From assembly GCA_004843165.1 (NCBI GenBank), contig CP039459.1:747501-811500 (forward strand): DNA of 64,000 nucleotides, read 5' to 3'. Position numbers and translations under genes: made by a program. The DNA comes from Acetobacteraceae bacterium. GTDB taxonomy: Bacteria; Pseudomonadota; Alphaproteobacteria; Acetobacterales; Acetobacteraceae. Positions 35,477 through 55,840 of this stretch are shown here, in pieces. The number at the start of each line of letters is the position of its first letter. Position 1 is the first letter of the stretch. The notes beneath the pieces are model-generated. The model had not been told where the DNA came from. It did not search any database and saw nothing but the letters and a program-made list of their open reading frames with translations.

Positions 35477-37789
35477 ATTCGTAATCTATCTCTGAATGAA
35501 GACGAGGATCTTCCTGAATTTTTCGTCAAAGAAGCACCTCTGCCAAAAGAGGCTCCCATTCCCTCTCTTAAAAAAATGATTGATCTCTCAAAACCACGCT
35601 GGATCAAAGCAGGGCAAGAAATTGAAATCTCCGGCGCTAAAATCAAGGACGGCATGCTCTATATCGGTGAAGTGCCCCGCAACAGCGCCTCTGCACAAAC
35701 GGATTACGGCCCTGAACTGATCAATTTAGCCCTTGATATTGCGCCAATGGGGCAATTTACAATGCGCCAGACAGGTTATTGGCCAAGCTATGATGCACTT
35801 GCCCCCTCTGGACGCCGTGCCTATCTCCATTGGCTTTCAGAAGGACGCCGTCATAAAGAGGCCGACCCTGGACTGGTTTTTCTCTTTTTTTATGGTTTAG
35901 AGCGGCGCATTCTGACCTCACCGCTGCCTTTAACGGCGGAACGGCAAGAGGAATGGCAAAATATTGCAACGGAATTAAAAGCGCTTTTAAAAACCTATGG
36001 GCCACGCTCTCCCTCTTTGGCCGGTTATATTTCCAGATTGCTGGAATGGATGGAGGATTTCCAATCCGCAACAGATAAGAACGTCACCCCAAAATCTCTG
36101 GAAAGATTTCTGATTCCTGAAGACACCGAAGAAGCGGATCTGCCAAAAGCTTGGCAACAAATTTGGGAAAATATTCAGCAGACCTATCCCTATCCTAGAG
36201 CTAAACGTACCGAACTGCCTTGGCGTTTGCGCTTAGCACTCGGACAAATCAGCCGTGATGCCAAACCGCTTTCGCCGCCGATGGCGCTGGCATGGCTGCA
36301 TTATCATCCTGACACAAACCTCCGCACGCCTGCGGCACGCTGTCCTAAACAATTTGACCAGCTTTTCATGGCACATTTTGCCAAAAATTTTCCGCAATGG
36401 ATGCGCCTCTTAAAAAGCCGCACGCCACTCAAAAAAACCTATTCGCCGGCCTCACATGCTTTGCAATTTCACCCAGCACTTAAAATGGAATTTTCCGACA
36501 TTCCAGATATTAGCCGTCTCAAAAATGGTTTAAGCAAGCTCGAAGATATTGCGATTCATGTATGTGATCAGCTCGATCTATACAGCCGTGCCCTTTCCAA
36601 AGAGCCAAATGATCCGGAAAATATGGATCTGCAAATTCTACTCCCCTTTATGCTTTGGCCAGAAGGGATGCAGATTAAAATTAAGGACTTAACAGACAAA
36701 ATCACCCAACAAGGGGCAGAAACTTATTGCTTTCATGAAATCTTTGAAGCCATAAATCCACAGCCAGAAAAAGACCTCACCCTACCTAAACGACTTTCTT
36801 TAAAACAAATTCAAGTCTTGGTCGAAAGTCTCAAAAGCTTAAATATCGGGGTAGAGCCTATCCCAACAAAAAATGCTGTCGATCTTTCCGAAAAATACAC
36901 CTTTTTTCCTTATCCTTTTCAGGAGAATGAAAATCAGGAAGATATTCCCGCCTTTACCCAGCTTTTCTTACAATTAGGGGTCGCTTTAGCCCTCTCTGAT
37001 GCCGAAGGGGTAAATCCGCCCCGAAGGGAATTTTTGGAAAAACAGCTCCTCAGCGCTGATTTTTCTACAGCAACAGACAGCTCTCTCCGCTTGATGCAAA
37101 ATAAGGCGCATATACTTTATTTAAGCACGCTTTCATCAACAAAAATTTTTAATCTGACAAAAAAACTCCTGCCAAATTTGGAACTCACACAGACGCAAAA
37201 GATTTTGTTGTTAAACCGCATGATTATGCAGGCAAAATTAACGGGGATGGTCTCCATTGGGGCGATAAAATTTTTAGAGAAAATCTATAAATTATTCGAT
37301 CAGGAGATAAGCACTCTCCCAAGTGATGTTAGCCGAGGCGGGATAGATGCGCCTGCACCGAAATCAAAAACACGCACCGCCACACACACCCTCCAGCTGG
37401 ATTTAGAAAAAATCGAGGAAAAACGCCAAGCCACCGAAGCCATCAGCGGCATTTTAGATCATATTTTCAATCCGGAAGCAGAAAAAGAGCCCCCCTCTCC
37501 AGCCTCGATACCTGTCGCCCCTGAAATACAGGCGGAAGAGAGTTCTGATACATCGCAGATTTTTCCTGACCTAGACACAGCGCACCGCAAAATGGCACAA
37601 GCGCTGATCGCAAAAACAGAATGGGACAGAACAGAAATTGAAGCTTTAGCCGAAAAATTCGACCTTATGGCGGAAGGGGCGCTCGAAGTCATTAACGATG
37701 CCGCTTTTGATCTTTATGACGCGCCTTTCATCGAGGGCGAAGACCCGTTTGAAATCAATCCGGAGATTTTGGAACAATTTCAGGCCTAA
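35477..37789 (+). CDS. TerB_N/TerB_C-domain protein, probable ATT start
   Basis: About 770 residues. The TerB_N signature YWPSYDALAPSGRRAYLHWL...FLFFYGLERRIL begins near residue 101; the C-terminal 150 residues form a TerB_C-like region with acidic helices. The first ATG is at 35576, but the open frame runs upstream without ATG, GTG or TTG. AGGA at 35465..35468 is exactly 8 bases before an in-frame ATT at 35477, giving the plausible N-terminus (M)RNLSLNEDEDLPEFF. TerB_N/C proteins are known from stress and defence neighbourhoods with an ATPase and a helicase; candidates for these lie at 49611..53273. Confidence 0.8.
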   Translation: MRNLSLNEDEDLPEFFVKEAPLPKEAPIPSLKKMIDLSKPRWIKAGQEIEISGAKIKDGMLYIGEVPRNSASAQTDYGPELINLALDIAPMGQFTMRQTGYWPSYDALAPSGRRAYLHWLSEGRRHKEADPGLVFLFFYGLERRILTSPLPLTAERQEEWQNIATELKALLKTYGPRSPSLAGYISRLLEWMEDFQSATDKNVTPKSLERFLIPEDTEEADLPKAWQQIWENIQQTYPYPRAKRTELPWRLRLALGQISRDAKPLSPPMALAWLHYHPDTNLRTPAARCPKQFDQLFMAHFAKNFPQWMRLLKSRTPLKKTYSPASHALQFHPALKMEFSDIPDISRLKNGLSKLEDIAIHVCDQLDLYSRALSKEPNDPENMDLQILLPFMLWPEGMQIKIKDLTDKITQQGAETYCFHEIFEAINPQPEKDLTLPKRLSLKQIQVLVESLKSLNIGVEPIPTKNAVDLSEKYTFFPYPFQENENQEDIPAFTQLFLQLGVALALSDAEGVNPPRREFLEKQLLSADFSTATDSSLRLMQNKAHILYLSTLSSTKIFNLTKKLLPNLELTQTQKILLLNRMIMQAKLTGMVSIGAIKFLEKIYKLFDQEISTLPSDVSRGGIDAPAPKSKTRTATHTLQLDLEKIEEKRQATEAISGILDHIFNPEAEKEPPSPASIPVAPEIQAEESSDTSQIFPDLDTAHRKMAQALIAKTEWDRTEIEALAEKFDLMAEGALEVINDAAFDLYDAPFIEGEDPFEINPEILEQFQA

Positions 37790-40935: not shown

Positions 40936-41003
40936 GATCCCTTGTAACGCAGGGTAATCTACTTCCCCAATTTTCAGAAATTTATTTAAGCGTTATTTTG
41001 AAC

Positions 41004-41034
41004 CCCCGTGCCCCCTTATCGGCACGGGGTTTTT
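41004..41034 (+). terminator. Rho-independent terminator
   Basis: CCCCGTGCC (41004..41012), loop of 8, GGCACGGGG (41021..41029), then TTTTT. It ends the transcript of the small exported protein. Confidence 0.92.
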
Positions 41035-41066
41035 AAATTTAACTTAGACATAAAATAGAGATTAAA

Positions 41067-42085
41067 ATGATAGAAGATGACGTATGGGAATACCCTATAG
41101 GGGGGCCGTGCGGCTGGATGTGGCGGCGCGCAAAAGAAAAGACACTGGCACAGGATTTTAATCCTAACCATCTCCCCACCGGATCGCCTGACAGCACAGG
41201 CGGACGATTTACAACGGAAGAAAATGCCAGCCTCTCTGTCCCTCCCTCAGCGAAAGTAACCGAAAAACAAAGCTCTCCAAAATCCGATATGCCGAAAAAA
41301 GCGGAAAGCGATCGATCTTATTTAAAAGATGCGATTTATCCTGCGCCTGACTTCTCAGATTTTTTACCGACCCCATCAGCGGCAGGTTTGAAAATTTTAA
41401 AAGGCTTAAAGCTTGCTTATGGTTTTTCCGAAGAAACACTGGCGTTTTTCGCTAAATTTCTTGCCGAAGAGGAGGGTAAAAAGGCGCTTGCGGGTGCCCC
41501 CAAGAATGTTCTGAAAGAAGAAAAAACGCTTTCAAATCTCTTTGAAAAAAAAGCAAAGCCTCTTCTCCAAAAGAGCATGTCAATAAATATGCGGATAAGA
41601 GCAAAGCCAATCCGCAAACATCGGTAGAAAAAGCGAAATTAGAAAGAGAAGCGCTCTCTCAAATCGATCTTCGCCTTCCTAAGCCCAGCAAAGAACTCTT
41701 TGAAAGCTATGAGAAATAGGGGCATCTTTTAGAGCGTCACCTGATAGAAGGCAATGCGCATAATCCAACGGGCATGACAGATGTTCATCTTATTCAACGG
41801 GCGCAAACAGGCAAATCCGCTTCAGCAATTCAAAATATGGAAACTTTAATAGAGAGCTACGCCAAAGCTTTGAATAAGCCTGAAAATCAGGCAGAGTTAA
41901 GAAGACTTTTAGCCGGAAAAAGAGAGAAGGTTTGGCTTGAGCTGGATATGGGAAGAAAGATTGGCAGATATGTCAAACAGGGCAGCTCTATTGTGAAAGA
42001 TGCTAAAAAAGTACAATTTTTAATCAAACGGACAAAGAATAATCCTGAGGGTTTTTATGTAGAAACCCTTGAACTACTGCCATAA
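41067..42085 (+). pseudogene. Broken polymorphic toxin with an RNase A-like C-terminal domain
   Basis: Frame 1 runs 41067..41627 (MIEDDVWEYP...). At an A8 tract (41545..41552) one added A would continue it naturally into EHVNKYADKSKANPQ and on to SYEK. An in-frame TAG at 41717..41719 then interrupts before GHLLERHLIEG, RAQTGKSASAIQNMET, GRKIGRYVKQG and GFYVETLELLP. These blocks match the bacterial CdiA-CT RNase A-like toxin domain (the HxxxRH motif, ASxF-like block, Gly-Arg-x-x-Gly-Arg and the final YxxT). With one frameshift and one stop, the toxin should be inactive as annotated. Two immunity-like genes follow directly. The N-terminus has no recognised delivery domain. Confidence 0.75.
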
Positions 42086-42102
42086 AGGAGAATGAGGTTA
42101 AA

Positions 42103-42504
42103 ATGAATAAAAAATATTATATTGATAAAACAGAACTTCATGACGCAGATGGTTTAACAGAAGGTCATCTTTGGAAAAGAATTTTTCCTGAACTACCTGA
42201 TTTTTTCCGTTCATATTTAAATTACTCTGTTTTGGATGAACTTGGAGATGGGGAAACAGCGGCAGAGACGATACCAGTTGCCGTAAGAGGGTATGATTAC
42301 GAAACCATTAAAGAAGTTCAGGCAGAACTGGCAGAGATGACTTGGGCTGTTAAACAGGGAAAACTGAATATAGAGGATTTCCTAGAAGATGTTTGGATTG
42401 TTCTTGTGCCTGAATATCAGAATCTCCCGCCTTTGGAATGGCTCGCAGATCTCCAAAATCTCTTAGAAAAAGCCATTCAGGAAAGATATGGTGAAGGATT
42501 TTAA
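42103..42504 (+). CDS. Probable immunity protein, copy 1
   Basis: 133 residues, acidic, no signal peptide, MNKKYYIDKTELHDADGL onward. It starts 17 bases after the RNase A-like toxin remnant, behind AAGGAG, in the usual toxin-immunity position (CdiI-like). It has a near copy immediately downstream. The family is not recognised by name; the role is inferred from position and duplication. Confidence 0.75.
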   Translation: MNKKYYIDKTELHDADGLTEGHLWKRIFPELPDFFRSYLNYSVLDELGDGETAAETIPVAVRGYDYETIKEVQAELAEMTWAVKQGKLNIEDFLEDVWIVLVPEYQNLPPLEWLADLQNLLEKAIQERYGEGF

Positions 42505-42515
42505 CAAAGGTTAAA

Positions 42516-42917
42516 ATGAATAAAAAATATTATATTGATAAAACAGAACTTCATGACGCAGATGGTTTAGCAGAAGGCCATCTTTGGGAAAGAATTTTTC
42601 CAAGACTGCCTGATTTTTTCCGTTCTTATTTAAATTATTCGGTTCTGGATGAGATTGGGGAAGGGGAAACGGCGGCCGAGACCATGCCCGCTGCTGTAAG
42701 GGGATATAATTATAACACGATTAAAGAAGTTCAGGCAGAGCTTGCAGAGATGGCTTGGGCTGTTAAACAGGGAAAACTGAATATGGCGGATTTCCTAGAG
42801 GATGTTTGGATTGTTCTTGTGCCTGAATATCAGAATCTCTCACCTCTGGAATGGCTCGCAGATCTCCAAAATCTTTTAGAAAAAGCCATACAAGAGAGAT
42901 ATGGTGAAGGATTTTAA
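42516..42917 (+). CDS. Probable immunity protein, copy 2
   Basis: 133 residues and, by my count, 13 substitutions against copy 1 (about 90% identity). Start regions are nearly the same at the DNA level, and the copies are offset by 413 bases, so this is a recent tandem duplication. Substitutions cluster at charged and surface-type positions (K to E, E to R, D to N), which may reflect changed toxin specificity. Confidence 0.75.
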   Translation: MNKKYYIDKTELHDADGLAEGHLWERIFPRLPDFFRSYLNYSVLDEIGEGETAAETMPAAVRGYNYNTIKEVQAELAEMAWAVKQGKLNMADFLEDVWIVLVPEYQNLSPLEWLADLQNLLEKAIQERYGEGF

Positions 42918-42932
42918 CTTTAAGTCTTAAAA

Positions 42933-43727
42933 CTATCTAGCAACGAGACAGCCTATCAATATCGTAACAATAATGACAAAACCTAAAAAACAAAAAGTGA
43001 AATATCGTTGTGTCGTTTTTTTTCTATCATCTGTAACATTTGGCACTGAGACAGACATCGGGGGGGCTTTTACAAGAAAAATATTATCAATATTTCCGCC
43101 ATCTACGGGGCTGGCCAATAGCAAGATATTCCCTTGGGAAAAATTCCATAAAGTTCGCAATTCCGCTACTGATGGGCTGTCTTCTGACGCAATAAAATTA
43201 AACATCGCTATCAGCTGGGCACTCTCACGGGTTCCTGTTAAAAATTTCTGTAGCTGATCGCTCAATTCACGCTTCAGCGGAAGATCTTGCAACTGTGCCA
43301 TTTTCCTCTCTAAGAGATTGACGCATTGTTTTACTTCTTTCGTTGCACAACTCAGCCATTCATCCGCCTTATCTCTTATAAGATCATCCAGAAGATCCGT
43401 TAAAAGTGAATTTTCTACAACGGGATTTGTTCTAAAAACCTCTAACACGTGCCCAAGAAGTTTGAATAAAATCTCTTGATCTGCACAACTTCCCTGAAGA
43501 ACCAAAGAATAGCGGATCCGGGTATTTACACGATCCCGACGTCTTGAAGGAATGGCACTCACAAAACAACGCCATTTGCCTACAGAATACCGCTCTAAAA
43601 TCAAAGTTGGCAACTCAAAAGATGTTGCACTTTGATAGGCTGTCTTTGTCCACCAGCGTTCCGGCGGTGCCTCACCTAAAAACGCATAATCAGAGGTTAA
43701 TCCACGGGTTTGAAGCCAAAGTTCCAT
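42933..43727 (-). CDS. GTPase-system accessory protein B, C-terminal membrane anchor
   Basis: 264 residues. The N-terminal domain (MELWLQTRGLTSDYAFLGEAP, and SFELPTLILERYSVGKWRCFVSAIPS) is shared with the neighbour at 43928..44926. A single C-terminal membrane helix (FTFCFLGFVIIVTILIGCLV) follows a basic stretch, so the protein should be tail-anchored with its domain in the cytosol. It is the last gene of the leftward GTPase operon. Its family is not known to me. Membrane attachment suggests it may carry out or localise the system's effect. Confidence 0.72.
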   Translation of the reverse strand: MELWLQTRGLTSDYAFLGEAPPERWWTKTAYQSATSFELPTLILERYSVGKWRCFVSAIPSRRRDRVNTRIRYSLVLQGSCADQEILFKLLGHVLEVFRTNPVVENSLLTDLLDDLIRDKADEWLSCATKEVKQCVNLLERKMAQLQDLPLKRELSDQLQKFLTGTRESAQLIAMFNFIASEDSPSVAELRTLWNFSQGNILLLASPVDGGNIDNIFLVKAPPMSVSVPNVTDDRKKTTQRYFTFCFLGFVIIVTILIGCLVAR

Positions 43728-43773
43728 CTTATTCTCTCATTATTGCTTCATAGCATTTATCTAAACGTCATTT

Positions 43774-43927
43774 TTAGTCTTGCGTATTTACCTCGGCTTC
43801 CGGCGGGATAATCCGAGAATCTTCCCTCGGTTTCTCCTCCATGGAAGAAAGAGAAAAATCTTCCCCGCTCCTTTTTAGTTTTTGACGTCTTTGGTCTGCA
43901 TCAAATTCTCGGAAACCTTTCTGTTTT
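43774..43927 (-). other. Out-of-frame coding-like extension after accessory protein A
   Basis: Directly after the TGA (43930..43928) of the upstream gene, the +1 frame stays open for 52 codons to a TAA at 43774 and reads as a plausible charged tail (EKQKGFREFDADQRRQKLKR and so on). The same frame is open for some distance upstream, and a T7 tract (A7 on the coding strand) lies at 43931..43937. This suggests a frameshift shortened the gene, but it could be chance. Confidence 0.4.
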
Positions 43928-44926
43928 TCATTTTTTTGTTTTGAAGGAAAAAATCTCGAAAATAGACGAGCGTAAAGAGGAAGAAGCGTTTTCCGGTTCC
44001 ATCTTTTGGCTTTCTAAGACAGCCATTTTCCTCTTCTCTATCTCTCTATTAAAAGAATTCTCTAGATTGGAGAAATCCAGAAAAAATGGAAGGGTAATAT
44101 CTCCTCCTGCGAGGGGACTGGGCAATAGCACACAACAATGAGACTGATCTCGCACAGACCGCCGTAAAGCAATCTTTAAGTCTTCCGCCAAGGAATCCTC
44201 TAACGAAGCAATAAAATTAAATAATGCGACGAGTAGTCTTTCGGAATCAGAGTTCTTTTCAAAAATACTCCGTATTTTCTCCTCCAAAGGAAAAGGCACT
44301 AACTGAGAAAATTTTTTCTTTAAGCCAATCAAACATTGCTCTAACCCCCATAAAGCATTCTTTAACTCTTCCGCCAAGGGATCCTCTGACGAAGCAATAA
44401 AATTCAACAATGCAACGATTCTTTTAGAATCAGAGTTCTTTTCAAAAATACTCCGTATTTTCTCCTCCAAAGGAAAAGGCGTTAACTGAGAAAATTTTTT
44501 CTTTAAGCCAATCAAACATTGCTCTACTTGATTTTGAGTCTCCGGCTTCTTTTCCAACCATTTATCCGCCTGTTCCCCCACAGCCTCATCCAGAAATTTC
44601 GTGAGTGATCCTATTTCCGGCGGATGCTTTCTAAAAACCTGCAAAACCTCTCCAAGAAGCTTAAACAAAATCTCTTGATCCGTGCCATCACCAGATAGAA
44701 CCAGCGAATAGCGTATCTGTGTCTTAAGCCGATCACACCGCTCGGAAGGAATGGCACTGATAAAACACTCCCATTTCCCCGAAGGAAATAATTCCAAAAT
44801 CAAAGTTGGCTGCTCAAACGATGTGAAATTTTTATAGACTCCCTCTGCCCACCATTCCTGCTGCGGTACCTCGCCGAGGAACGCATAATCATGCGTTACC
44901 CCACGTGTTCGAAGCCAAATCTTCAC
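43928..44926 (-). CDS. GTPase-system accessory protein A, with internal duplication
   Basis: 332 residues. The N-terminal domain (MKIWLRTRGVTHDYAFLGEV...SFEQPTLILELFPSGKWECF) is paralogous to 42933..43727. The middle holds two near-identical units of about 61 residues (EQCLIGLKKKFSQL then PFPLEEKIRSIFEKNSDS), a recent internal duplication. No membrane helix is seen in the annotated frame. Its ATG overlaps the stop of the GTPase gene upstream (ATGA). The 3' end may be frameshifted. Confidence 0.72.
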   Translation of the reverse strand: MKIWLRTRGVTHDYAFLGEVPQQEWWAEGVYKNFTSFEQPTLILELFPSGKWECFISAIPSERCDRLKTQIRYSLVLSGDGTDQEILFKLLGEVLQVFRKHPPEIGSLTKFLDEAVGEQADKWLEKKPETQNQVEQCLIGLKKKFSQLTPFPLEEKIRSIFEKNSDSKRIVALLNFIASSEDPLAEELKNALWGLEQCLIGLKKKFSQLVPFPLEEKIRSIFEKNSDSERLLVALFNFIASLEDSLAEDLKIALRRSVRDQSHCCVLLPSPLAGGDITLPFFLDFSNLENSFNREIEKRKMAVLESQKMEPENASSSLRSSIFEIFSFKTKK

Positions 44927-46071
44927 CCGCTGATCCCAGTTGGACGAATAATCTTAACCCGTGGGCCATAGTCTTTCTGACATAAAGCATTTAGCAATTC
45001 CACAACATTATTGGAGGATTTAATCGCCTCATCTGCCGTCTGTGCTGCTCGCGCTGCCTTTTTTTCGTTCTCTGTTACACGACCAAACAAACTGAAAATT
45101 GATTCAAAAATATTTTTATTTTGAGCTTGCTTCTGGGCTTCTTCAGCTTTTGTAATCGAAGCCGTTGCCTTCTCATATTGCACTTTCTCGTGGTAGTGAA
45201 AAAATTGCTTCGCAACGGCTAATAAAATATCCCTTGCCCCAAAAACGGACTGCCTACCGGAACGACACACCCGAAATGAAGGGCTAAAGACTGGTGGCTT
45301 TGCATTAACGTCCCATCGTGCCGATAAAAACTCTACACAGCCAATCGTATCAACCGGCATATATAAAATCTCTGTATTTTCAGGCCCCTCTTTATAAACG
45401 GTTTCGATGACATCCTTATAAAGATTTAGAGTCCGGTTAAAAAGCTCCTCTCTCTTATCGCGAGTTCCACCATTATCATCAAAATAGCTCTCGCATTTCA
45501 CAGGACAAATTAATACCAACGAGGGATGATCCGGCCGTTTTTTCTTGGCCTTACTCCATGCTTCAAGAATTTCACCAGTCGCATACAGATCAAGGATACT
45601 ATCGATAGCGCTCTTTTCTTTTGCTCTGCCTGCCTCCATCACCAAACTGGCATCAACGACCAACAAGAGAACAGAAGCATCCTTTATAAATTCTGCACTT
45701 TGTATCTGCTCCTGCGTTTCTCCACTCAACAATACACCACGGGATACCCACCCACCGGGAAAATCTAACAAAGTCAGATCTAATTTATGCGCTTCATCAA
45801 TAGCACTGCCAAGCGATAGATTAAAATAATACGGTGCTTCAGTACCGCTCATCGCCCCGGTATCAAATTCCCCTTCACGTAATGAACCGCGTAATTGGTT
45901 CATATGCTGATTGATCCGCACCCGGGTTTTTGCATTCTTAGGCTCTAGACTTAGCGGTGTATCCTCCAAAAGTTTTTTGGTATCTTGAAGCAGGGCTGTC
46001 ACCAAAGAGGTTTTCCCAATTCGGCTGGGTGCCAACATTGCAATTTTAAATTCTAAATTTGTATCACTCAT
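44923..46071 (-). CDS. P-loop GTPase, second GTPase of a paired system
   Basis: 382 residues. A P-loop at the start (MLAPSRIGKTSLVTALL, about 12-28) and a switch II-like LLDFPGGWVSRG (about 101) mark a TRAFAC-type GTPase; CPVKCESYF may be the base-specificity loop. The C-terminal third is a charged coiled coil. It follows a dynamin-like GTPase and precedes two paralogous accessory genes, an arrangement like the two-GTPase conflict systems proposed from comparative genomics. Function in this organism is unknown. Confidence 0.78.
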   Translation of the reverse strand: MSDTNLEFKIAMLAPSRIGKTSLVTALLQDTKKLLEDTPLSLEPKNAKTRVRINQHMNQLRGSLREGEFDTGAMSGTEAPYYFNLSLGSAIDEAHKLDLTLLDFPGGWVSRGVLLSGETQEQIQSAEFIKDASVLLLVVDASLVMEAGRAKEKSAIDSILDLYATGEILEAWSKAKKKRPDHPSLVLICPVKCESYFDDNGGTRDKREELFNRTLNLYKDVIETVYKEGPENTEILYMPVDTIGCVEFLSARWDVNAKPPVFSPSFRVCRSGRQSVFGARDILLAVAKQFFHYHEKVQYEKATASITKAEEAQKQAQNKNIFESIFSLFGRVTENEKKAARAAQTADEAIKSSNNVVELLNALCQKDYGPRVKIIRPTGISG

Positions 46072-46148
46072 TTATCATTCCTCGGATCTCGGGAAATATG
46101 ATCCTTTCCAATACATTTTGGATCACACCTACAAATTTCAGGGGGGAC

Positions 46149-48410
46149 TTACGCTAAGGTTTGGCGAACAGCCTTCATCGCATTTTTAACAGCGGCAGTT
46201 CTTGCTGTTGCTGCCTTGACGCCGGCAAAAATACCTGGCCAGATCTCATCACGATAGGAATACGCCAGCCGTTTCAACTCTCTCTCAGAAACAGCAGAAC
46301 GAATTAATGCATCATCAAACTGCTCGACGGCTGCATATATCACCCTTTCTGGCACTTTATACTCTTCCATCAGAGCTTTACGCATCTGATATACTGCAGA
46401 ATGTGCTTTCTCTGTCATCTTGCGCAACAATTTTTCTACGCCAGAAGATGTTTTTTCTACGGCAAATTCAGGTTCCACATCACCTGTTTTAGGATTCACA
46501 CTCTCATTTTGTAGAATATCAAGCGTATAACGAACCTTATGATGAAGCTGTGTCCGGTAATCAAGCCGCAATGAAAGTAAATCTTTTATCGCACGAGAAA
46601 TTTGCGGGCATGGCTCCTCTGCCTCCTCCGCTAATGTGGCCAATTTCTCAAGAACCCCACGCCCTGTTTTTCCCTCCAACAAGATACCGAAAGAAGGCTT
46701 TAAAATGCCATCGCCTAGACGTTTCCAGACCTCCTCAAGTGTTTTATTAAAATAGTCATCAATACCTGAGAAAGCATTACTAACTTCAACCCGAATATTA
46801 TTAAACTCACGATTAACAAATCCACCAGAGCCGCTCTCCACGATCAGATTTTCAAAGGCTTTCTTAGACCATTTTTCGGCCCCGTCTCCCAATCCGTTAT
46901 CAATCCAATGACAGATATTTTCATAAGCATGATCTACAGCTTCTTCAAAAGCCTCCGCTTCCTTTCCTGAATCCTGAGACACCTGTTCCTTTAGAATTTT
47001 TAACTCCAAATGTAATTTAAGAGCTAACCTACTTAGGAGCTTTTTTATTTCATCATCCAATGTCTCTCGCTCACCAGAACCCAAGTTGGACGCTTTGCCT
47101 TTTGTAAAGCTTGCCTCAATTCCCGAAAGAATCTCATTTACCTGCAAAACAATACCTGCTGACTGGGCAAGCGTCTTTTTACGAATTTGACGATCCATGA
47201 CCGGCAAACGTTCAGCTAGATGGGTAAGTACAGGTTCAAGAACATGCTCATAAACGTTTTTTTCATCCGCAGCATTTGCCTCCAGCAGCTGAAAATTCTT
47301 ACCAGCCTCACCATTATTGACATTTCGCAAGATATCCCCCCGTAATGCCATGATGCTTGCCTTATCAGCTCCGCCAATATTCATCACCAAATAAACAAAA
47401 TCACGTCGACTTTCTACGAAACCCCGTGCCTTGTCCAGCAGATCAGTTGCATTACCGTCTTCCTTGCCCCAGTAGGCCATCCCCTCTAGGGGGCGTTTTA
47501 CCAACATCACCAAATCCACATCATTGCACAGACCTTCAAGATGATGTTCCTCGGCATTGGCATTGAGTTCACCAAGTCCCGGTAAATCAATAATCCCTAA
47601 CTGAGAAACCTGTGCATAAGGGAAAGGGCATTCAATCCGCACATCCTTAACCGCCAAATAAGGACGAGGTACAACCTGACCATGAAGGTACCCCTCTTCT
47701 TCGGCCTCTGAAGTCGGGTAGGCAACATAATGACGCAAACCATCAAGGCTAACCTCTGTTTCTCCACCTACTAAAGCGCTACGATAAGAAGGTAAAGATG
47801 ACTGCATATCTTTAATTTTTTTTAAAATAATCGTGGCACTTGCTTCTCGTTCAGAAACAGATTCTGGATATTGATACTGCGCAAAAAGCTCCAAAGTTTG
47901 AGGGGCTTCTGGCAGACCTAGCGCATCATGATAAGGTTGCAGCACATCTTGACGAAAACTCTCATAAGTATGCAAATGCAAAATGGCACGACGTAAATGA
48001 TCAGAATGGAAAATCCGGCTACGTACGGCGGTCACGGGCAAACCACTGCCCGTCGGAATCTGGTCATCATTTAAACCAGAAATAGATTGCAACAGGGTGC
48101 TCTTTCCCACACGCGCTCGACCACTCACACCGACATTTAAAGTAGGACGACTAAAACGTGCTTTAAGATGCTCAAGACTGGTAATAGCCTGAGAAATGTT
48201 ACCATTGACTGTGTCAAATGGAAGGGTGCTAAAATTATCTAGTGCTTGATTATCCGCCCCCTCATGCTGGCGAAATACTGTAACGGCCTGTTTCAGATCT
48301 GCAAGATTGCCCTTTAATTTTTCCAACCTGTTAAGTTGCCGCTCAATTTCCGGCAGCTCATTGCGTCTTTCTTGTAAAATAGCTGTAATTTTTTTTTGAA
48401 TATTCGTCAC
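46149..48410 (-). CDS. Dynamin-like large GTPase
   Basis: 753 residues starting at a GTG (48410) that abuts six tandem DNA repeats. An N-terminal coiled coil is followed by a G domain: GRARVGKSTLLQ (about 98, G1), DLPGLGE (about 275, G3) and NIGGADK (about 345, G4-like). The remaining 350 residues are helical, as in bacterial dynamin-like or LeoA-type proteins that remodel or sense membranes. It is the first gene of a four-gene leftward operon (77 bases to the next). The nearest in-frame upstream sequence is the repeat array, so GTG is the only sensible start. Confidence 0.82.
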   Translation of the reverse strand: MTNIQKKITAILQERRNELPEIERQLNRLEKLKGNLADLKQAVTVFRQHEGADNQALDNFSTLPFDTVNGNISQAITSLEHLKARFSRPTLNVGVSGRARVGKSTLLQSISGLNDDQIPTGSGLPVTAVRSRIFHSDHLRRAILHLHTYESFRQDVLQPYHDALGLPEAPQTLELFAQYQYPESVSEREASATIILKKIKDMQSSLPSYRSALVGGETEVSLDGLRHYVAYPTSEAEEEGYLHGQVVPRPYLAVKDVRIECPFPYAQVSQLGIIDLPGLGELNANAEEHHLEGLCNDVDLVMLVKRPLEGMAYWGKEDGNATDLLDKARGFVESRRDFVYLVMNIGGADKASIMALRGDILRNVNNGEAGKNFQLLEANAADEKNVYEHVLEPVLTHLAERLPVMDRQIRKKTLAQSAGIVLQVNEILSGIEASFTKGKASNLGSGERETLDDEIKKLLSRLALKLHLELKILKEQVSQDSGKEAEAFEEAVDHAYENICHWIDNGLGDGAEKWSKKAFENLIVESGSGGFVNREFNNIRVEVSNAFSGIDDYFNKTLEEVWKRLGDGILKPSFGILLEGKTGRGVLEKLATLAEEAEEPCPQISRAIKDLLSLRLDYRTQLHHKVRYTLDILQNESVNPKTGDVEPEFAVEKTSSGVEKLLRKMTEKAHSAVYQMRKALMEEYKVPERVIYAAVEQFDDALIRSAVSERELKRLAYSYRDEIWPGIFAGVKAATARTAAVKNAMKAVRQTLA

Positions 48411-48548
48411 AGATGAAGCTTCTCTTTTCTAACAGATGAAGCTTCTCTTTTCTAACAGATGAAGCTTCTCTTTTCTAACAGATGAAGCTTCTCTTTTCTA
48501 ACAGATGAAGCTTCTCTTTTCTAACAGATGAAGCTTCTCTTTTCTAAC
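48411..48548. repeat. Six 23-bp tandem repeats in the leader of the GTPase operon
   Basis: Units start at 48411, 48434, 48457, 48480, 48503 and 48526 and are essentially identical (AGATGAAGCTTCTC then TTTTCTAAC on the plus strand). On the coding strand every unit carries AAGAGAAG, which works as a Shine-Dalgarno about 8 bases before the GTG start in the first unit. The array is a classical slippage-prone VNTR. Copy number could change promoter or leader spacing and so switch expression of the operon. Confidence 0.92.
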
Positions 48549-48668
48549 AATAAGTAAACACTATCTTTGGTGTCTCTTTCTTAAATTTATGTCAACCCTA
48601 ATATCTTAAAGAAATAACAAAATCCATAAATAATAAGTAAAATTTTTCAATCTTCTAAAATTTTCCCT

Positions 48669-48696
48669 AAAAAGGCGAGTTTTCCCCCGCCTTTTT
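48669..48696. terminator. Terminator with symmetric A/T flanks
   Basis: AAAAAGGCG (48669..48677) pairs with CGCCTTTTT (48688..48696). It most likely ends the leftward transcript of 48718..49380. Confidence 0.8.
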
Positions 48697-48717
48697 CGTG
48701 TCAAAATCTGTTCTGGC

Positions 48718-49380
48718 TTAGTAGCGTGCCGGGATTAAAATTCTTGGGGAAAGGATTTCTTTTTGCTCATCCGGATTGGTGCAACGCACCCAGCGCTGGT
48801 AAGGATAATCCTCTACGCCGACAGGACGGACGAGAAAGGATTGGGCGGTGCAGTTTTGGACTTCAGGATCTGCAAAATCGACATGGCGATAGGCCGGAAC
48901 TGGCTGGCCGCCTGTTTTGAGGCTTTCCGCCGTTTTAAGAAAATCTGAAATTTTTTGGGCTGAAATCCAGAAGGCTTTGACCTTATCTTTTTCGCCGGGA
49001 TTATCTACGAGCAAGATACCGCCTTCTTTTTCGCCATTGGCAAGGGTCAGTTCCGCATAGGCGGAAATCACGCCGATTTTGTCAAAGGGAACGGGTGCTA
49101 AGGATTTAATCTCTTCTCTGGCGTTTTTATTAAAATTAAAAGAGATAATTTCAACGGCACTGACTTCGGAAGGAACACCATTATTCTCATTACGGCCATT
49201 ATTGAGCCAAGAAACGGCTTTGGGTGAATTGAGAAGGCCCGCAATTTTCCATTGCTGTTTATCGGAAAGAATCTGCGGATCAGAGAAGACTTCAGCAGAG
49301 GCCAATGATGTCATGTAAGATGCAGAAAGCCCTAAAGCCAAGCAGGCGGCTGCAACTTTTTTATTCAAAAATTTATACAT
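48718..49380 (-). CDS. Exported protein of unknown function
   Basis: 220 residues with a signal peptide (VAAACLALGLSASYMTSLASA). The mature part has two cysteines near the C-terminus (NCTAQSFL and VRCTNPDEQ) and no recognised domain. It is monocistronic between the GTPase operon and the BrxD-like gene. Confidence 0.7.
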   Translation of the reverse strand: MYKFLNKKVAAACLALGLSASYMTSLASAEVFSDPQILSDKQQWKIAGLLNSPKAVSWLNNGRNENNGVPSEVSAVEIISFNFNKNAREEIKSLAPVPFDKIGVISAYAELTLANGEKEGGILLVDNPGEKDKVKAFWISAQKISDFLKTAESLKTGGQPVPAYRHVDFADPEVQNCTAQSFLVRPVGVEDYPYQRWVRCTNPDEQKEILSPRILIPARY

Positions 49381-49610: not shown

Positions 49611-50942
49611 ATGTCTCTTTCCCCCTCCCCTGAGAAAAAAATCAAAATCCGCCCCCGTGACAAAGATGCCCTTCTACAATCGTTGAGGGCGGGGGTTGTT
49701 CCCCGTATTGGCCAGCATCTTATCCAAGTGGGACGTAAACTCGAAGTCGAAACCCTCATCAAAGATATTGAACGTCTCAGCGATGGCGGGTCTGCCTTTC
49801 GCCTGATTGTGGGGGAATATGGAGCCGGAAAAACCTTTTTTCTCAATTTAGTGCGCACCATTGCGCTCGAGCATAAGCTCGTCGTCGCCAGTGCCGATTT
49901 AAACCCTGACCGCCGTCTGCATGCGACAGGGGGGCAAGCCCGTTCGCTTTTTGCGGAGCTGATGCGCAATCTCTCCACCAGGGCACGTCCTGATGGCAAT
50001 GCGATGGCTGGAATTGTTGAGAAATTTATTGCTACCTGCCGCAATGAAGCCAAAGCAGAGGGCAAAGCAGTCGAAACCATCCTCCAGGGCAAGCTCGAAC
50101 AATTGAGTGAATTGGTGAATGGTTATGATTTTGCCGAAGTGATCTCAGCCTATTGCCGTGGCTTTGAAGAGGATAACCAAACGCTGAAAAACGATGCGCT
50201 GCGTTGGCTCAGAGGAGAGTTTTCCACCAAAACCGATGCGAAAAAAGCGCTTAGCGTTCGTGCCATTGTCGAGGACGGCTCTTTTTACGATCAATTAAAA
50301 TTGATGGCGCTCTTCGTTCGTTTAGCAGGCTATAACGGTCTGCTTATTTCACTGGATGAAATGGTCAATCTCTTTAAGCTTTCCAATGCGCAAGCCCGGC
50401 GCTCCAACTATGAACAGCTCTTGCGTATTCTCAATGATTCTTTGCAGGGAACAGCGGTTGGGCTTGGCTTTATCCTTGGCGGTACGCCTGAATTTCTTCT
50501 TGACCCAAGGCGTGGTCTTTACAGTTATGAAGCTTTGCAAAGCCGTTTAGCGCAAAATAATTTTGCCACCGATGGGCTGGTGGATTTTTCAGGGCCCGTT
50601 GTGCGTCTTTCCAGTTTGACACCGGAGGATTTTTACCTCCTGCTTTCAAACATTCGCAATGTCCATGCCAGCGGTGATGAAAGTAAATATCTCATTCCTG
50701 ATGAAGCGATCAAAGCCTTTATGCAGCATTGCAATGAACGGATCGGGAATAGTTTCTTTAGAACCCCTCGCACGACCATTACGGCCTTTATTAATCTTCT
50801 CGCTGTTTTGGAGCAAAACCCCAATGCGAAATGGCAGGACCTTGTCGGCGGATTAGATATTCAAGCGGACCAGGAGGCGCATATTTTAGGCGAGAACACC
50901 CCAACGGCGGACGAGGATGAATTTGCCGATTTCACGCTGTAA
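49611..50942 (+). CDS. BrxD-like P-loop ATPase (DUF2791 family)
   Basis: 443 residues. Walker A VGEYGAGKTFFLNLVR (about 66-81) and Walker B-like LLISLDEMVNL (about 245) sit in the layout of the DUF2791/BrxD ATPases of type 2 BREX phage-defence loci. The end is an acidic tail. A helicase gene follows after 12 bases, again the order seen for brxD and brxHI. No pglX, pglZ or other BREX genes are in the window, so this is a BREX-related or TerB-type two- or three-gene module rather than BREX itself. Confidence 0.82.
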   Translation: MSLSPSPEKKIKIRPRDKDALLQSLRAGVVPRIGQHLIQVGRKLEVETLIKDIERLSDGGSAFRLIVGEYGAGKTFFLNLVRTIALEHKLVVASADLNPDRRLHATGGQARSLFAELMRNLSTRARPDGNAMAGIVEKFIATCRNEAKAEGKAVETILQGKLEQLSELVNGYDFAEVISAYCRGFEEDNQTLKNDALRWLRGEFSTKTDAKKALSVRAIVEDGSFYDQLKLMALFVRLAGYNGLLISLDEMVNLFKLSNAQARRSNYEQLLRILNDSLQGTAVGLGFILGGTPEFLLDPRRGLYSYEALQSRLAQNNFATDGLVDFSGPVVRLSSLTPEDFYLLLSNIRNVHASGDESKYLIPDEAIKAFMQHCNERIGNSFFRTPRTTITAFINLLAVLEQNPNAKWQDLVGGLDIQADQEAHILGENTPTADEDEFADFTL

Positions 50943-50954
50943 AAGAACCCGCCT

Positions 50955-53273
50955 ATGACCTCCTCCGCTTTTGATCTTTTAGACTCTCGGATTCAGCGTT
51001 TTTTATGGCAGGCGCAATGGGATGCGTTGCGCCCGGCGCAAGAGCAAGCCATCCCTGTCATCCTCCAAGGAGAAGGCGATGCGATCATCGCTGCCCCCAC
51101 GGCAGCCGGCAAGACAGAGGCGGCTTTTCTGCCTACGCTGACGGCATTTTTAAAGGCAAGAGACACGCAGAAACAAAAGGATGCGCTCATCCTTTATCTC
51201 AGCCCCCTAAAGGCCTTGATTAACGATCAGTTTGAGCGTCTCGATCATCTTTGCGAAAGTTTGGAAATCCCCGTCACGCCGTGGCATGGCGATGTGCCGG
51301 CCAGCAAGAAAAATCATTTTTTAAAAAATCCAAAAGGATTGCTGCTCATCACGCCGGAATCCCTTGAGGCGTTGCTCTGTCGCCGAGGGACGGAAATTCA
51401 GCGTATTTTCAAAGGCGCTCTCTTTGTCATTATTGACGAGCTCCACGCCTTTATCGGGAGCGAGCGAGGGAAACAACTGCAATCGCTTTTATATCGCATT
51501 GAAATGGATCAGAAACGTTTTATCAGGCGGATCGGTCTTTCGGCGACTTTAGGCAATATGGCGCTTGGCGCAGAATTTTTGCGCCCTTCTGCCGGAAAAT
51601 CAGAGAAAATCCCCCCCGTTGAAATTGTCGATATTGGCGGCGGCGATGTCAAAATGAAAATCCTCGTCAAAGGCTATCTTGCCAAAGAGCCGCTTTCTGA
51701 CGATGAAAAGATGATTTTAGAGGAGCTTTCCCGCCTCAATCTTTCCGAAGCGCAACTTAAAAAAGAGAAAAAACGGCTTGGGCTTTCCGAGGATGACCTT
51801 GCAGAAAAAAAGGAAAAAGCCTCTGCGGAATATGGTATTGCAAAAGATTTATTTAAGCGTCTCCTTGGCAGCAATCATTTGATTTTTCCCAATACCCGCC
51901 AAGATGTCGAAAATTATACGCATCTTTTAAACGGATTTTGCGATCAAAAGAAAATTTCTCAACAATTCTGGCCACATCATGGGAGCCTCTCGCCCAAACT
52001 CCGTCTGGAAACCGAGCAGGCATTAAAGCAAAAAGACCAACCCGCAATCGGTATTTGCACCAGTACCTTAGAGCTGGGAATTGATATCAATAGCGTCAAA
52101 TCTATTGCCCAGATCAATCCGCCGCCTTCTGTCGCAAATTTACGTCAAAGAATGGGACGTTCCGGCCGTGGACGGGGGGAACATCCGATTTTAAGAGGCT
52201 ATGTTCTTGAAAAACGCCTAGATGAGAAATCCTCTTTAGAAGATCGCCTCCGCCTGCATTCCCTCCAAATGTCGGCCAGCATTTCCCTCCTGCTCAAAAA
52301 TTGGTGCGAACCGCCGCAAACAAAAGGTTTGCATCTTTCCACCTTGGTACAGCAGCTTTTATCGCTCATTTCACAATATAACGGTATCCAGCCGGGAACC
52401 GCCTATAAACTCCTTTGCGGCTTGGAGGAAAGTCCTTTTCGGCAAGTCAGCCCGGCGCAATTTAAACTTTTTCTAAGCCATTTAGGGCAAATTGACCTGC
52501 TCATACAGGATCATTCCGGTACCTTATTACATGGGGAAATCGGCGATCGGATTGTCAATAATTTTGAATTTTACGCCTCTTTTAAAAGCCAAGATGAGTT
52601 CCGTCTCGTCTCTAATGGAAAGACGCTCGGCACGCTGCCTATAAAGGGCGTGATAAAGCCTAAAACCACCCTCCTCTTTGCCGGAAAAGCCTGGATGGTG
52701 CAAAGCATCTCTGAGGCGGAAAAAACCCTCTATCTCACAGAAACACGGCGTGCCGCCGTCAAAATCCACGGCGAAGGCGGACGTGTCCATCATCAAATCC
52801 GCCAAGAGATGCGCCGGATTTGCGCTGGTAGCGCCCCTTTGCGTTTTCTTGATCCGCAAGCGCAGGAATTTATTCATGAGGCACGTATGGCGTGGCGGGA
52901 ATTTGGCCTTTCCCACACAAATCTCATAGATCATGGCGACCGTCTGCAAATTCTGACATGGGCGGGCGATAATGAGAATGAAGCGATCATGTGCTATCTC
53001 AACGCCCATGAGATTTCCGCCCGTAATAATGAGCTGGGCATTATGATTGATAAGGAAATGGAAAGCGCCGAAGAAATTTTAGAGCGCATCAAAGAGATCA
53101 AGGCAGATCCGAAAATACCGCTCGAAAAACTCCTTAAAGACGCACAGAATTTACAGCGTGAAAAATGGGATTGGGCGCTGCCGGAAGAATTGCTCTGGGA
53201 AAATTACGCCAGCGCCAATCTCAATTTAGAAGCCGGCTCCAAATGGCTGAATGATTTTGCAAAAATTATTTAA
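50955..53273 (+). CDS. Lhr-like superfamily 2 helicase (BrxHI-like)
   Basis: 772 residues. Motif I APTAAGKTEAAFLP (about 50), motif Ia YLSPLKALINDQ, motif II IIDELHAF (DELH), motif III LSATLG, motif IV-V CTSTLELGIDINSV and motif VI QRMGRSGRGRG are all intact. These features place it with Lhr-type DNA helicases, as in BrxHI. It is translated right after the BrxD-like ATPase, and the two should act together on DNA. A TerB_N/C gene that often accompanies this pair in other genomes is found 12 kb upstream on the same strand. Confidence 0.9.
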   Translation: MTSSAFDLLDSRIQRFLWQAQWDALRPAQEQAIPVILQGEGDAIIAAPTAAGKTEAAFLPTLTAFLKARDTQKQKDALILYLSPLKALINDQFERLDHLCESLEIPVTPWHGDVPASKKNHFLKNPKGLLLITPESLEALLCRRGTEIQRIFKGALFVIIDELHAFIGSERGKQLQSLLYRIEMDQKRFIRRIGLSATLGNMALGAEFLRPSAGKSEKIPPVEIVDIGGGDVKMKILVKGYLAKEPLSDDEKMILEELSRLNLSEAQLKKEKKRLGLSEDDLAEKKEKASAEYGIAKDLFKRLLGSNHLIFPNTRQDVENYTHLLNGFCDQKKISQQFWPHHGSLSPKLRLETEQALKQKDQPAIGICTSTLELGIDINSVKSIAQINPPPSVANLRQRMGRSGRGRGEHPILRGYVLEKRLDEKSSLEDRLRLHSLQMSASISLLLKNWCEPPQTKGLHLSTLVQQLLSLISQYNGIQPGTAYKLLCGLEESPFRQVSPAQFKLFLSHLGQIDLLIQDHSGTLLHGEIGDRIVNNFEFYASFKSQDEFRLVSNGKTLGTLPIKGVIKPKTTLLFAGKAWMVQSISEAEKTLYLTETRRAAVKIHGEGGRVHHQIRQEMRRICAGSAPLRFLDPQAQEFIHEARMAWREFGLSHTNLIDHGDRLQILTWAGDNENEAIMCYLNAHEISARNNELGIMIDKEMESAEEILERIKEIKADPKIPLEKLLKDAQNLQREKWDWALPEELLWENYASANLNLEAGSKWLNDFAKII

Positions 53274-53486: not shown

Positions 53487-55097
53487 ATGACAAATTCTCA
53501 GCCGATTGGGGCATTATATCTCATCAAATGCTTAGAACTGCCAATGGTTGGGCGTTTAAGATGCGAGAGTTTTGTAGGCGCATCCCGCCAAACCAAAGAG
53601 AATAATGGTCTGCGAAAAGAATTTTATCAACGCCATCAAACCCCTGATTTAGACGATTTCAGAGGCCATTTTCGTTTTCACCTGAAGTCTGAAACCCCTC
53701 ATTTTGAGTTTATATGTCGTTTTTTTGAAAAAATCGGCAAGGAATTTTCTCAAAATTGGATTGATGAAGAGCCTTCTGGCATTTATGCAAGACGCACAGC
53801 CTTTTTCTATGAATTTTTTACAGGAGAGGAAGTTTTAAAGCTTCCAAATTCTGGTGTGTTTGGCAATTATAAAAATGCCTTAGATGAGAAAAAAATTCTC
53901 TGCGCCTCTCTAAATAAGGTCAGTAAAAACACTCGCTGGAAAATCTTGGACAATATGCCGGGCAATCGTTTTTTCTGTCCCTCTCTTGTCAAAAACGAAG
54001 CTTGGGAATTAGCAGAAAAACTTGATATTCCCAAAATGCTCGAAGGGATTAAAACCGAATTCGGGCAAGAGATGCTCATGCGTGCGGCAAACTGGATGAC
54101 AATCAAAGAAAGCCGTGCGAGTTTTGACATTGAACATGAAGCGCAAGATGTCAGCCGCATAGAGCGCTTTGCCCATGTCCTTTCCCAAAAAACCGGCACA
54201 GATGACAGACCACCTCTCTCCCATGAGACACTCCAAAATCTCCATCAAGATATTATTGGCAAAAATACCGTTCTTAAAAAATTTGGCATTCGCCAATCCC
54301 CCGTTTTTATTGGACGGGACGGTTATAATGCCCCAGAAGACAGGGTGGATTATATCGCCCCACCCCGTCAGGATTTATCCGAAATGCTGGAAGGCATTGA
54401 GGTTTTTTTAGAACGTACGCAAGGACAAAATACCGTGATGCGTGCCGCCATTGCCGCCTTTGGTTTTGTGTATATCCATCCTTTAGCAGATGGCAACGGA
54501 CGTGCGCACCGTTTTTTAATTCAAGATATCCTCTGTCGGGATCGCGCCTTGGAAAAAGGCTTTATTTTGCCAGTTTCTGCGGTCATTAACGCTGACAGCC
54601 TCATGCGCCGATCCTATGATGAGGTTTTAGAAACACTCTCTAAACCTTTAATGCAAAAAATACGTCCTTTTATTTCTTTTTCACCAAAGTACAAAAAATA
54701 TCCTGACGGCATTGAATCGGATTTAGAATTTACAGGACATAAAATTGCACGCCCTGCTTGGCGTTATCCCAAAATGGAACCGCATCTTGGCTTTCTAACC
54801 CGCATTCTTAAAAGATCCATCGAAGAATATCTTTATAATGAAACTGCTTTTTTACGAAGGCTTTATAAAGGCAGAGAGGCGATCAAAGAAATCTTGGAAA
54901 TGCCGGACAGAATGGCAGACCGCATTCTCAGGGCTTTTCGAGAACGTCCCCATACAGCATTTAGCAAAAAACTCTTAAAAGAGATTCCCGCTTTGGCAGA
55001 AAGCAACAGGGCAGAAAAAATTCAAAAAACGCTTACCAAAATTTGGCAAGAAAATCCTGTCAAAGATGAAAACCGCACGGATGTTTTTAAACCCTAA
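53487..55097 (+). CDS. Fic-domain protein, probable AMP-transferase
   Basis: 536 residues. The core motif HPLADGNGRAHR (His331 to Arg342) fits HPFx(D/E)GNGRxxR, so the catalytic His and the nucleotide-binding residues are present. The N-terminal 230 residues and the C-terminal 120 residues are not recognised. Proteins of this class attach AMP or related groups to target hydroxyls. No short antitoxin gene is adjacent. A set of direct repeats upstream suggests tight repression. A Fic relative on the other strand follows. Confidence 0.88.
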   Translation: MTNSQPIGALYLIKCLELPMVGRLRCESFVGASRQTKENNGLRKEFYQRHQTPDLDDFRGHFRFHLKSETPHFEFICRFFEKIGKEFSQNWIDEEPSGIYARRTAFFYEFFTGEEVLKLPNSGVFGNYKNALDEKKILCASLNKVSKNTRWKILDNMPGNRFFCPSLVKNEAWELAEKLDIPKMLEGIKTEFGQEMLMRAANWMTIKESRASFDIEHEAQDVSRIERFAHVLSQKTGTDDRPPLSHETLQNLHQDIIGKNTVLKKFGIRQSPVFIGRDGYNAPEDRVDYIAPPRQDLSEMLEGIEVFLERTQGQNTVMRAAIAAFGFVYIHPLADGNGRAHRFLIQDILCRDRALEKGFILPVSAVINADSLMRRSYDEVLETLSKPLMQKIRPFISFSPKYKKYPDGIESDLEFTGHKIARPAWRYPKMEPHLGFLTRILKRSIEEYLYNETAFLRRLYKGREAIKEILEMPDRMADRILRAFRERPHTAFSKKLLKEIPALAESNRAEKIQKTLTKIWQENPVKDENRTDVFKP

Positions 55098-55120: not shown

Positions 55121-55840
55121 TTACTCGAGCTTTTCCTTTGCAACATTGAGGGTGAGATAGGCTTTTTTATATTCTTCTAAAAGAAGTGCCGTCATTGGGG
55201 TTTGATTACCGGCAAAAATCTCAGAAAAGGCCTCTGCGAAGCCTGCTAAATTATCCAAAGGCAGCACAAGCGGCGAGATCCCCTCATCAGCTAGAACGGC
55301 ATTCACGAAAAGGAAAATCGTACGCTTGTTCGCACCGAAAAAAGGCTGAATCAATGAAAGGGCACAAAAGAGGCGAACACCATCCTCCGCTTGTTTCTCC
55401 GAATTAAGAAAATTGGTCAGCGCCATAAGCATTTCAGCCCGGATATTTTCAGGCTCTGCGGTTGGAATCGGGCCGATGAAGCGCCCCTTTATAAGACGCA
55501 CTCCCGGCGTATAGTTTTTTTCCGCCCCCTCCCCCCGAAGATTACCCCACTCCAAATCCTCACCGGCAGCCACAAAGGCATGAAGTTCACACAAGCAGTC
55601 AATATCGGCACTGAGTGTTTTTTGCTCAATTTTTTGAAGCAGAAAATGATAACCCCGCATGAGATTAATCATGATCTCAGCGTCTTCTGTTTTGAGATAA
55701 AGCGGAACGGTGCCGTTTATCATGCTTTCGGTCTGTGCCAATGTGATGGCGCATTTTTGAAGCACGGCCAACCCAAAAAGCATATAGGCATGACTGCGCT
55801 TAAACTCTGATAATGCGACTTTTTGGCGCCACGAAAACAT
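55121..55840 (-). CDS. Degenerate Fic-like protein
   Basis: 239 residues with a helical layout like Fic proteins. At the motif position it has QPFFGANKRTIFLF: the catalytic His is Gln, and the expected Asp and Gly are Gly and Ala, while the trailing NKRT is retained. ESMINGTVPL near residue 39 recalls the segment around the inhibitory helix. It is convergent with the active-looking Fic gene. It is probably catalytically inactive or of altered activity, perhaps a regulator of its neighbour. Confidence 0.65.
   Translation of the reverse strand: MFSWRQKVALSEFKRSHAYMLFGLAVLQKCAITLAQTESMINGTVPLYLKTEDAEIMINLMRGYHFLLQKIEQKTLSADIDCLCELHAFVAAGEDLEWGNLRGEGAEKNYTPGVRLIKGRFIGPIPTAEPENIRAEMLMALTNFLNSEKQAEDGVRLFCALSLIQPFFGANKRTIFLFVNAVLADEGISPLVLPLDNLAGFAEAFSEIFAGNQTPMTALLLEEYKKAYLTLNVAKEKLE

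Follow-up and report, generated by a model that had tools for sequence, protein, structure and literature searches.

Do two GTPase genes and two accessory genes packed onto one strand of an Acetobacteraceae genome form a dedicated system and, if so, what might it do? The genes lie at positions 42933 to 48410 of a 64,000-nucleotide stretch of contig CP039459.1 (positions 747,501 to 811,500, hereafter the window), and an earlier note singled them out as a coupled four-gene operon for an undescribed, membrane-acting system. All four open reading frames are present on the minus strand as that note described:

46149..48410, minus strand: DYN, dynamin-superfamily GTPase by predicted fold, 753 amino acids, GTG start (open reading frame, AlphaFold2 model with Foldseek, conserved residues)
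44923..46071, minus strand: G2, Ras-like/TRAFAC P-loop GTPase, likely of the DO-GTPase2 lineage, 382 amino acids (PF19993, motifs)
43928..44926, minus strand: acc2, TRG-family paralogue that lacks the tail anchor, 332 amino acids, GTG start (open reading frame, motif)
42933..43727, minus strand: acc1, TRG-family protein with a putative N-terminal longin-like domain and a predicted C-terminal tail anchor, 264 amino acids (open reading frame, motif, model)

The coupling holds for part of this row. There is a 4-bp overlap between G2 and acc2, and DYN is separated from G2 by 77 bp, but 200 bp lie between acc2 and acc1, so acc1 is not tightly coupled. Both accessory proteins begin with the motif TRG(x)3DYAFLGE.

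A conserved three-gene cassette

The conserved unit at this locus is a three-gene cassette of DYN, G2 and TRG, with the third gene duplicated in the window genome only. The three genes stand in the same order at 27 of the 29 homologous loci with TRG, and the window genes are therefore not a chance cluster of open reading frames. Both partners were present at 13 of the 15 loci retrieved through TRG alone, a set that is free of bias from the DYN query. In 11 carrier genomes TRG is a single-copy gene with no other occurrence, and two copies were found only in the window genome. Because the relatives carry one TRG copy per genome, we regard the four-gene layout as a local duplication and have ruled it out as the conserved unit. 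The pairwise distances of DYN, G2 and TRG correlate with one another (r 0.91-0.95 over 25 loci), to which shared ancestry of the locus contributes. One exceptional locus, L066, has a lone TRG gene beside the same LysR and transporter genes as those bordering the L016 system, and is probably a remnant. A gene of ~139 amino acids follows TRG at L002 (11077-11496), with equivalents in L010, L011, L013, L015, L055 and L056; it is confined to Streptomyces-type loci and hence was rejected as a fourth core member.

TRG-family loci come from the Acetobacteraceae and from actinomycetes. Genome searches found the triad in Gluconobacter vitians and Neokomagataea anthophila, which belong to the same family as the window, and in Lentzea, Streptomyces, Kitasatospora and Actinokineospora, and a plasmid search recovered the same gene order on a Streptomyces aurantiacus plasmid. 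Carriage is very patchy: a TRG profile matched 9 of 299 genomes of the Streptomyces family, 13 of 299 of the Lentzea family and, across 397 genomes spread over that phylum, the centre genome only (1/397), and in a further genome search 3 of 398 genomes carried the system. The earlier note had named scattered occurrence as a possible refutation. Carriage is indeed sporadic. Even so, the three genes are carried as a set, as would be expected of a mobile accessory system and not of noise. We conclude that DYN, G2 and TRG make up a real GTPase system of three components, both dedicated and mobile, and that TRG is a new accessory family.

DYN, TRG and the predicted membrane anchor

By its predicted fold, DYN is a member of the dynamin superfamily with a helical neck/trunk after the G domain. 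When its AlphaFold2 model (predicted local distance difference test score, pLDDT, 85.6) was compared with the PDB using Foldseek, the top match was SynDLP (E 1.7e-14), followed by BDLP, IniA and mitofusins, all with probability 1.00, bearing out the dynamin-like GTPase first read from the sequence. Invariant among 25 DYN sequences are G102, K103 and S104 of the P-loop, the switch-I residue T127, D275 and G278 of DxPGxG, and R540. The Pfam Dynamin_N model gives the window protein 17 bits against a cut-off of 27, and a relative at L019 passes. None of the 25 members has a hydrophobic 19-residue segment above a Kyte-Doolittle value of 1.75; peripheral lipid binding through charged surfaces is possible. 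A lipid-binding paddle or transmembrane segment of its own is not universal among dynamins.

The accessory proteins, whose domain had gone unrecognised in the earlier note, have no family match in profile searches of Pfam, NCBIfam or PADLOC. They are paralogues of which one carries a membrane helix, as that note had seen: in acc1 a predicted tail anchor at residues ~245-263 forms a hydrophobic helix that ends one residue before the C terminus. Across the family, a strongly hydrophobic helix lies 0-16 residues from the C terminus in 24 of 30 TRG proteins, and in a 25th it is followed by a 30-residue tail. The window's acc2 is a duplicate that lost its anchor, and an internal tandem duplication of 183 bp (44158-44526, ~91% identical) lengthens the middle of the protein. 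We detected no membrane-spanning segment in 25 members of G2. Since TRG is anchored while DYN and G2 lack membrane segments, TRG most likely supplies the membrane address of the complex, its membrane insertion being a prediction from sequence.

The TRG model (pLDDT 82) suggests an N-terminal domain that is longin-like or TagF-like. Its best PDB match was TagF of type VI secretion (9t0n, E 1.7e-3), and Lokiarchaeal longin domains (8yqg, probability 0.87 and 0.72) and the Lst4 longin followed. GATOR1-KICSTOR, FLCN-FNIP and DENND10 entries were also among the top 15 matches, and with the longin domains they account for most of those ranked after TagF; from the entry titles, we take the matched chains of these larger complexes to be their longin-bearing subunits. 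A profile-profile comparison restricted to the N-terminal domain, suggestive but weak, scored 21.4 against TagF_N, a value reached by none of 200 shuffles (mean 12.3, standard deviation 2.5, maximum 20.1), and the best of 28 unrelated decoys scored 18.6. The alignment is collinear, pairing conserved R, D and W positions and the motif (P)SxxDxxG..xxxTL. At an E-value limit of 10, a hidden Markov model (HMM) of TagF_N (PF09867) matched none of 15 TRG proteins, and a search of the TRG model against viral structures returned nothing significant. Small GTPases classically pair with longin or roadblock domains, bacterial MglB-MglA being an example, and a pairing of TRG with G2 fits this.

G2 and its likely DO-GTPase connection

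The second gene encodes a P-loop GTPase, as first proposed, with conserved APSRxGK[ST], DxPG and PVKCE motifs, of which the P-loop and DxPG are invariant. G2 likely belongs to the DO-GTPase2 lineage (PF19993). The window copy itself falls below the curated cut-off (E 5e-4, 20 bits against 27), and we make the assignment because two related proteins exceed it, an orthologue in Nonomuraea (L021, 44 bits) and a relative from a cyanobacterium (L022, 36 bits). Kaur et al. 2020 described GTPase-centric conflict systems built from DO-GTPases and GAP1 with GASH or FNIII partners, and placed DO-GTPase2 in conflict systems that act near membranes (PMC7159879). The designation of the locus as undescribed thus needs qualifying: a full-text literature search found no paper describing the triad, but a GTPase related to those of described conflict systems is not wholly unknown.

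The companions of those systems did not turn up. An HMM search of the 15 TRG proteins for GAP1 gave no match at an E-value limit of 10, and TRG as a GAP1-N domain was set aside for lack of HMM support, GAP1 sequences being too few for a fair profile-profile comparison. PF20013 was found in none of 9 carrier genomes and PF20014 nowhere in the window's genome, and no operon protein had a Pfam match to GASH, FNIII or the zinc-ribbon companion. On the Stanieria plasmid pSTA7437.02 (L019, 6977-13366), three genes stand in a row, for a DYN relative, a DO-GTPase-like protein and a protein of 992 amino acids. The DO-GTPase-like gene has below-threshold matches to both DO-GTPase families, and the 992-residue protein starts with QLIHGKxxxKxxGYRLIA, which is GAP1-like by eye and not called by Pfam. 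This locus may link the triad to the DO-GTPase/GAP1 systems.

Genes for a caspase (C14) and/or a CHAT protease flank the triad at three loci from Lentzea and Nonomuraea:

L009, 7811-9808 and 18124-20562: caspase/CHAT regions
L017, 276-3284 and 6835-9303: caspase/CHAT regions
L021, 707-7947: caspase/CHAT region

These neighbours bear on an account of the triad as the signalling core of DO-GTPase-type programmed death, in which it would act as a sensor and threshold switch while variable effectors such as caspases and CHAT proteases, encoded nearby or elsewhere, kill the cell. The DO-GTPase2-like character of G2 and the caspase effectors of published GAP1-N1 systems (PMC7159879) speak for it, as does locus L059, where the gene adjoining G2-TRG on the downstream side resembles a vWA-domain protein by eye. 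However, caspase and CHAT genes lie near only 3 triad loci and were rejected as obligatory partners, no effector fused to TRG was seen, and neither GAP1 nor GASH was detected. In Neokomagataea anthophila (L006, 6635-12792) the three genes alone interrupt a cobalamin biosynthesis cluster, which argues that these three suffice. We consider this account unlikely.

Genomic setting and mobility

The surroundings of the window cassette agree with the defence island proposed for it, as the cassette is inserted inside a Shango locus, between sngA (35576-37789) and sngB-sngC (49611-53273):

35576..37789, plus strand: SngA of Shango (PADLOC SngA, 223 bits; Pfam TerB_N/TerB_C)
40937..48754, no strand: 7.8-kb insertion relative to sister species G001, which contains the cassette together with an orphan toxin/immunity-like cluster
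48409..48549, no strand: 6.1 perfect 23-bp tandem repeats in the leader/promoter region, directly upstream of the DYN start codon
49611..50942, plus strand: SngB, BrxC/BrxD-like ATPase (PADLOC SngB, 591 bits)
50955..53273, plus strand: SngC, DEAD-box helicase (PADLOC SngC, 788 bits)

Both flanks align with the sister species, in which the 7.8 kb is replaced by 121 bp, a clean presence/absence difference. The sister species instead carries four other genes between sngB and sngC (L089), each for a multi-membrane-span protein of ~500 amino acids, marking this as a variable site. Elsewhere, the triad adjoins DISARM DrmA/DrmB at L011 and lies near a STAND/Avs-like gene at L013. Defence genes typically show what is seen here: patchy carriage, insertion in a locus such as Shango, a neighbour such as DISARM, residence on plasmids and absence from a sister species. 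A phage origin was rejected, since searches of phage records and viral contigs found no relatives.

The same features weigh on the possibility that the triad is a non-defensive accessory for membrane maintenance or vesicles, in which the dynamin, with G2-TRG as its membrane receptor, would repair or remodel the membrane when the envelope is stressed, for instance by antibiotics or acid. The bacterial dynamins DynA and IniA are reported to act in envelope stress (PMC8844932, PMC6715688), no nuclease or NADase effector is present, and the Acetobacteraceae and actinomycetes share little in lifestyle that would point to a single trigger. Such a role sits poorly with very patchy carriage, however, and with the Shango insertion and DISARM neighbour, the copy on a plasmid and the lack of the cassette in the sister species, and we judge it improbable. 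Far less probable still is a fixed GTPase cassette that keeps out plasmids or competitors instead of phage. It could account for carriage on a Streptomyces plasmid and for the orphan toxin/immunity-like cluster (41067-42917) that adjoins the window cassette, but the cluster lies outside the conserved unit, and DYN, G2 and TRG contain no toxin domain.

Several details of the window complete this picture. Within the insertion, the stretch at 41067-42917 comprises orphan toxin-like fragments followed by two tandem CdiI_2-like genes of 133 amino acids, ~89% identical, and looks like a decayed polymorphic toxin/immunity cluster. Shango itself is split, with sngA ~12 kb from sngB-sngC and LemA, a 613-amino-acid protein and the variable insertion in between. 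Beyond it are a Fic protein (53487-55097; PADLOC candidate family PDC-S24, 475 bits) and, on the opposite strand, a weaker Fic-like gene (55121-55840). The 23-bp repeat unit in front of DYN is ACAGATGAAGCTTCTCTTTTCTA; the array reaches the start codon, and on the operon strand every repeat has a run of purines resembling a Shine-Dalgarno sequence. Changes in copy number of these leader repeats could tune expression.

A proposed mechanism

Our tentative explanation is that DYN-G2-TRG is a mobile three-protein GTPase conflict system, probably anti-phage. TRG would sit in the inner membrane through its C-terminal tail anchor and present its longin-like domain to the cytoplasm, where this domain would bind and regulate the switch GTPase G2. 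Infection or membrane damage would flip the switch, and G2-GTP on TRG would recruit soluble DYN, or license it, so that DYN assembles on the inner membrane and remodels it. Delayed lysis or membrane sealing at the level of the population would be the most likely outcome, as reported for Bacillus subtilis DynA in dynamin-mediated phage tolerance (PMC8844932). Alternatively, the infected cell would die.

Several points weigh against this explanation. The defence role of the cassette is inferred from its genes and their setting, and no obvious killing effector accompanies the Acetobacteraceae copies. At L059 (8379-13060), G2-TRG occurs without DYN, and a few TRG proteins, the window acc2 among them, have no anchor. 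The G4 position of G2 reads P[VL]KCE, not NKxD, making its specificity for guanine putative. Finally, no PDB match of the TRG model reaches E 1e-3, and its longin matches have E 0.016 or weaker with TM-scores of at most 0.41, so the longin/TagF likeness is a lead only.

The conflict-system explanation has a more specific form, which we regard as doubtful: an undescribed bacterial membrane machine of three parts, namely a receptor with a longin fold and a tail anchor, a Ras-like GTPase and a dynamin, that together serve as a mobile immune cassette. If it were true, a bacterial cassette would unite three types of element that are combined in eukaryotic membrane trafficking. More broadly, a defence role of the triad would mean that dynamin-driven membrane remodelling, gated by a dedicated GTPase switch and an anchored receptor, joins the immune mechanisms of bacteria. 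The new accessory family would pinpoint such systems in genomes, and the triad would offer a small model for the cooperation of a longin-like domain, a switch GTPase and a dynamin outside eukaryotes.

Comparison with known systems

Among the closest known systems are the DO-GTPase/GAP1 systems, with which the triad shares a GTPase likely of the DO-GTPase2 lineage and a dedicated third partner whose gene directly follows that of the GTPase. Components associated with the membrane, a sporadic distribution and defence-type neighbours are also common to both. In contrast to them, it has no detected GAP1-N/M/C, GASH, FNIII or zinc-ribbon parts. Its dynamin-superfamily GTPase is integral to it, whereas the word "dynamin" is absent from the text of PMC7159879, and its third component is TRG, a small protein with a tail anchor.

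TagF resembles TRG as the first match of its model, in the collinear motifs and in a profile score above shuffles and decoys. TRG differs in falling below family thresholds, in its low TM-scores, in lacking a type VI secretion context and in having a tail anchor. Eukaryotes have longin-type R-SNAREs such as VAMP7 and Sec22. What TRG has in common with these is architecture only (an N-terminal longin-like domain, a helical middle and a C-terminal tail anchor), and like the proposed triad they work alongside small and dynamin-type GTPases. There is no sequence similarity, and no SNARE motif was seen in TRG, where none was looked for; the likeness is analogy, not homology.

Among bacterial dynamin systems, Eleos/LeoABC (PMC4159319) also has a dynamin-like component, and DYN gives a weak PADLOC LeoBC match (17.3 bits), but the partners in the triad are a DO-GTPase-like protein and TRG. 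PADLOC models found no LeoA and LeoBC pair in the window. Of the triad loci, only L058 has a LeoA-like gene nearby (338-2698, 28 bits), placed upstream of the triad, and that locus may hold two dynamin-type proteins. DynA shares with DYN a dynamin-superfamily GTPase that is expected at the membrane under phage attack, and PMC8844932 does not describe it in such an operon. DYN, in turn, is without a hydrophobic membrane segment, and its partners are a second GTPase and a protein with a tail anchor.

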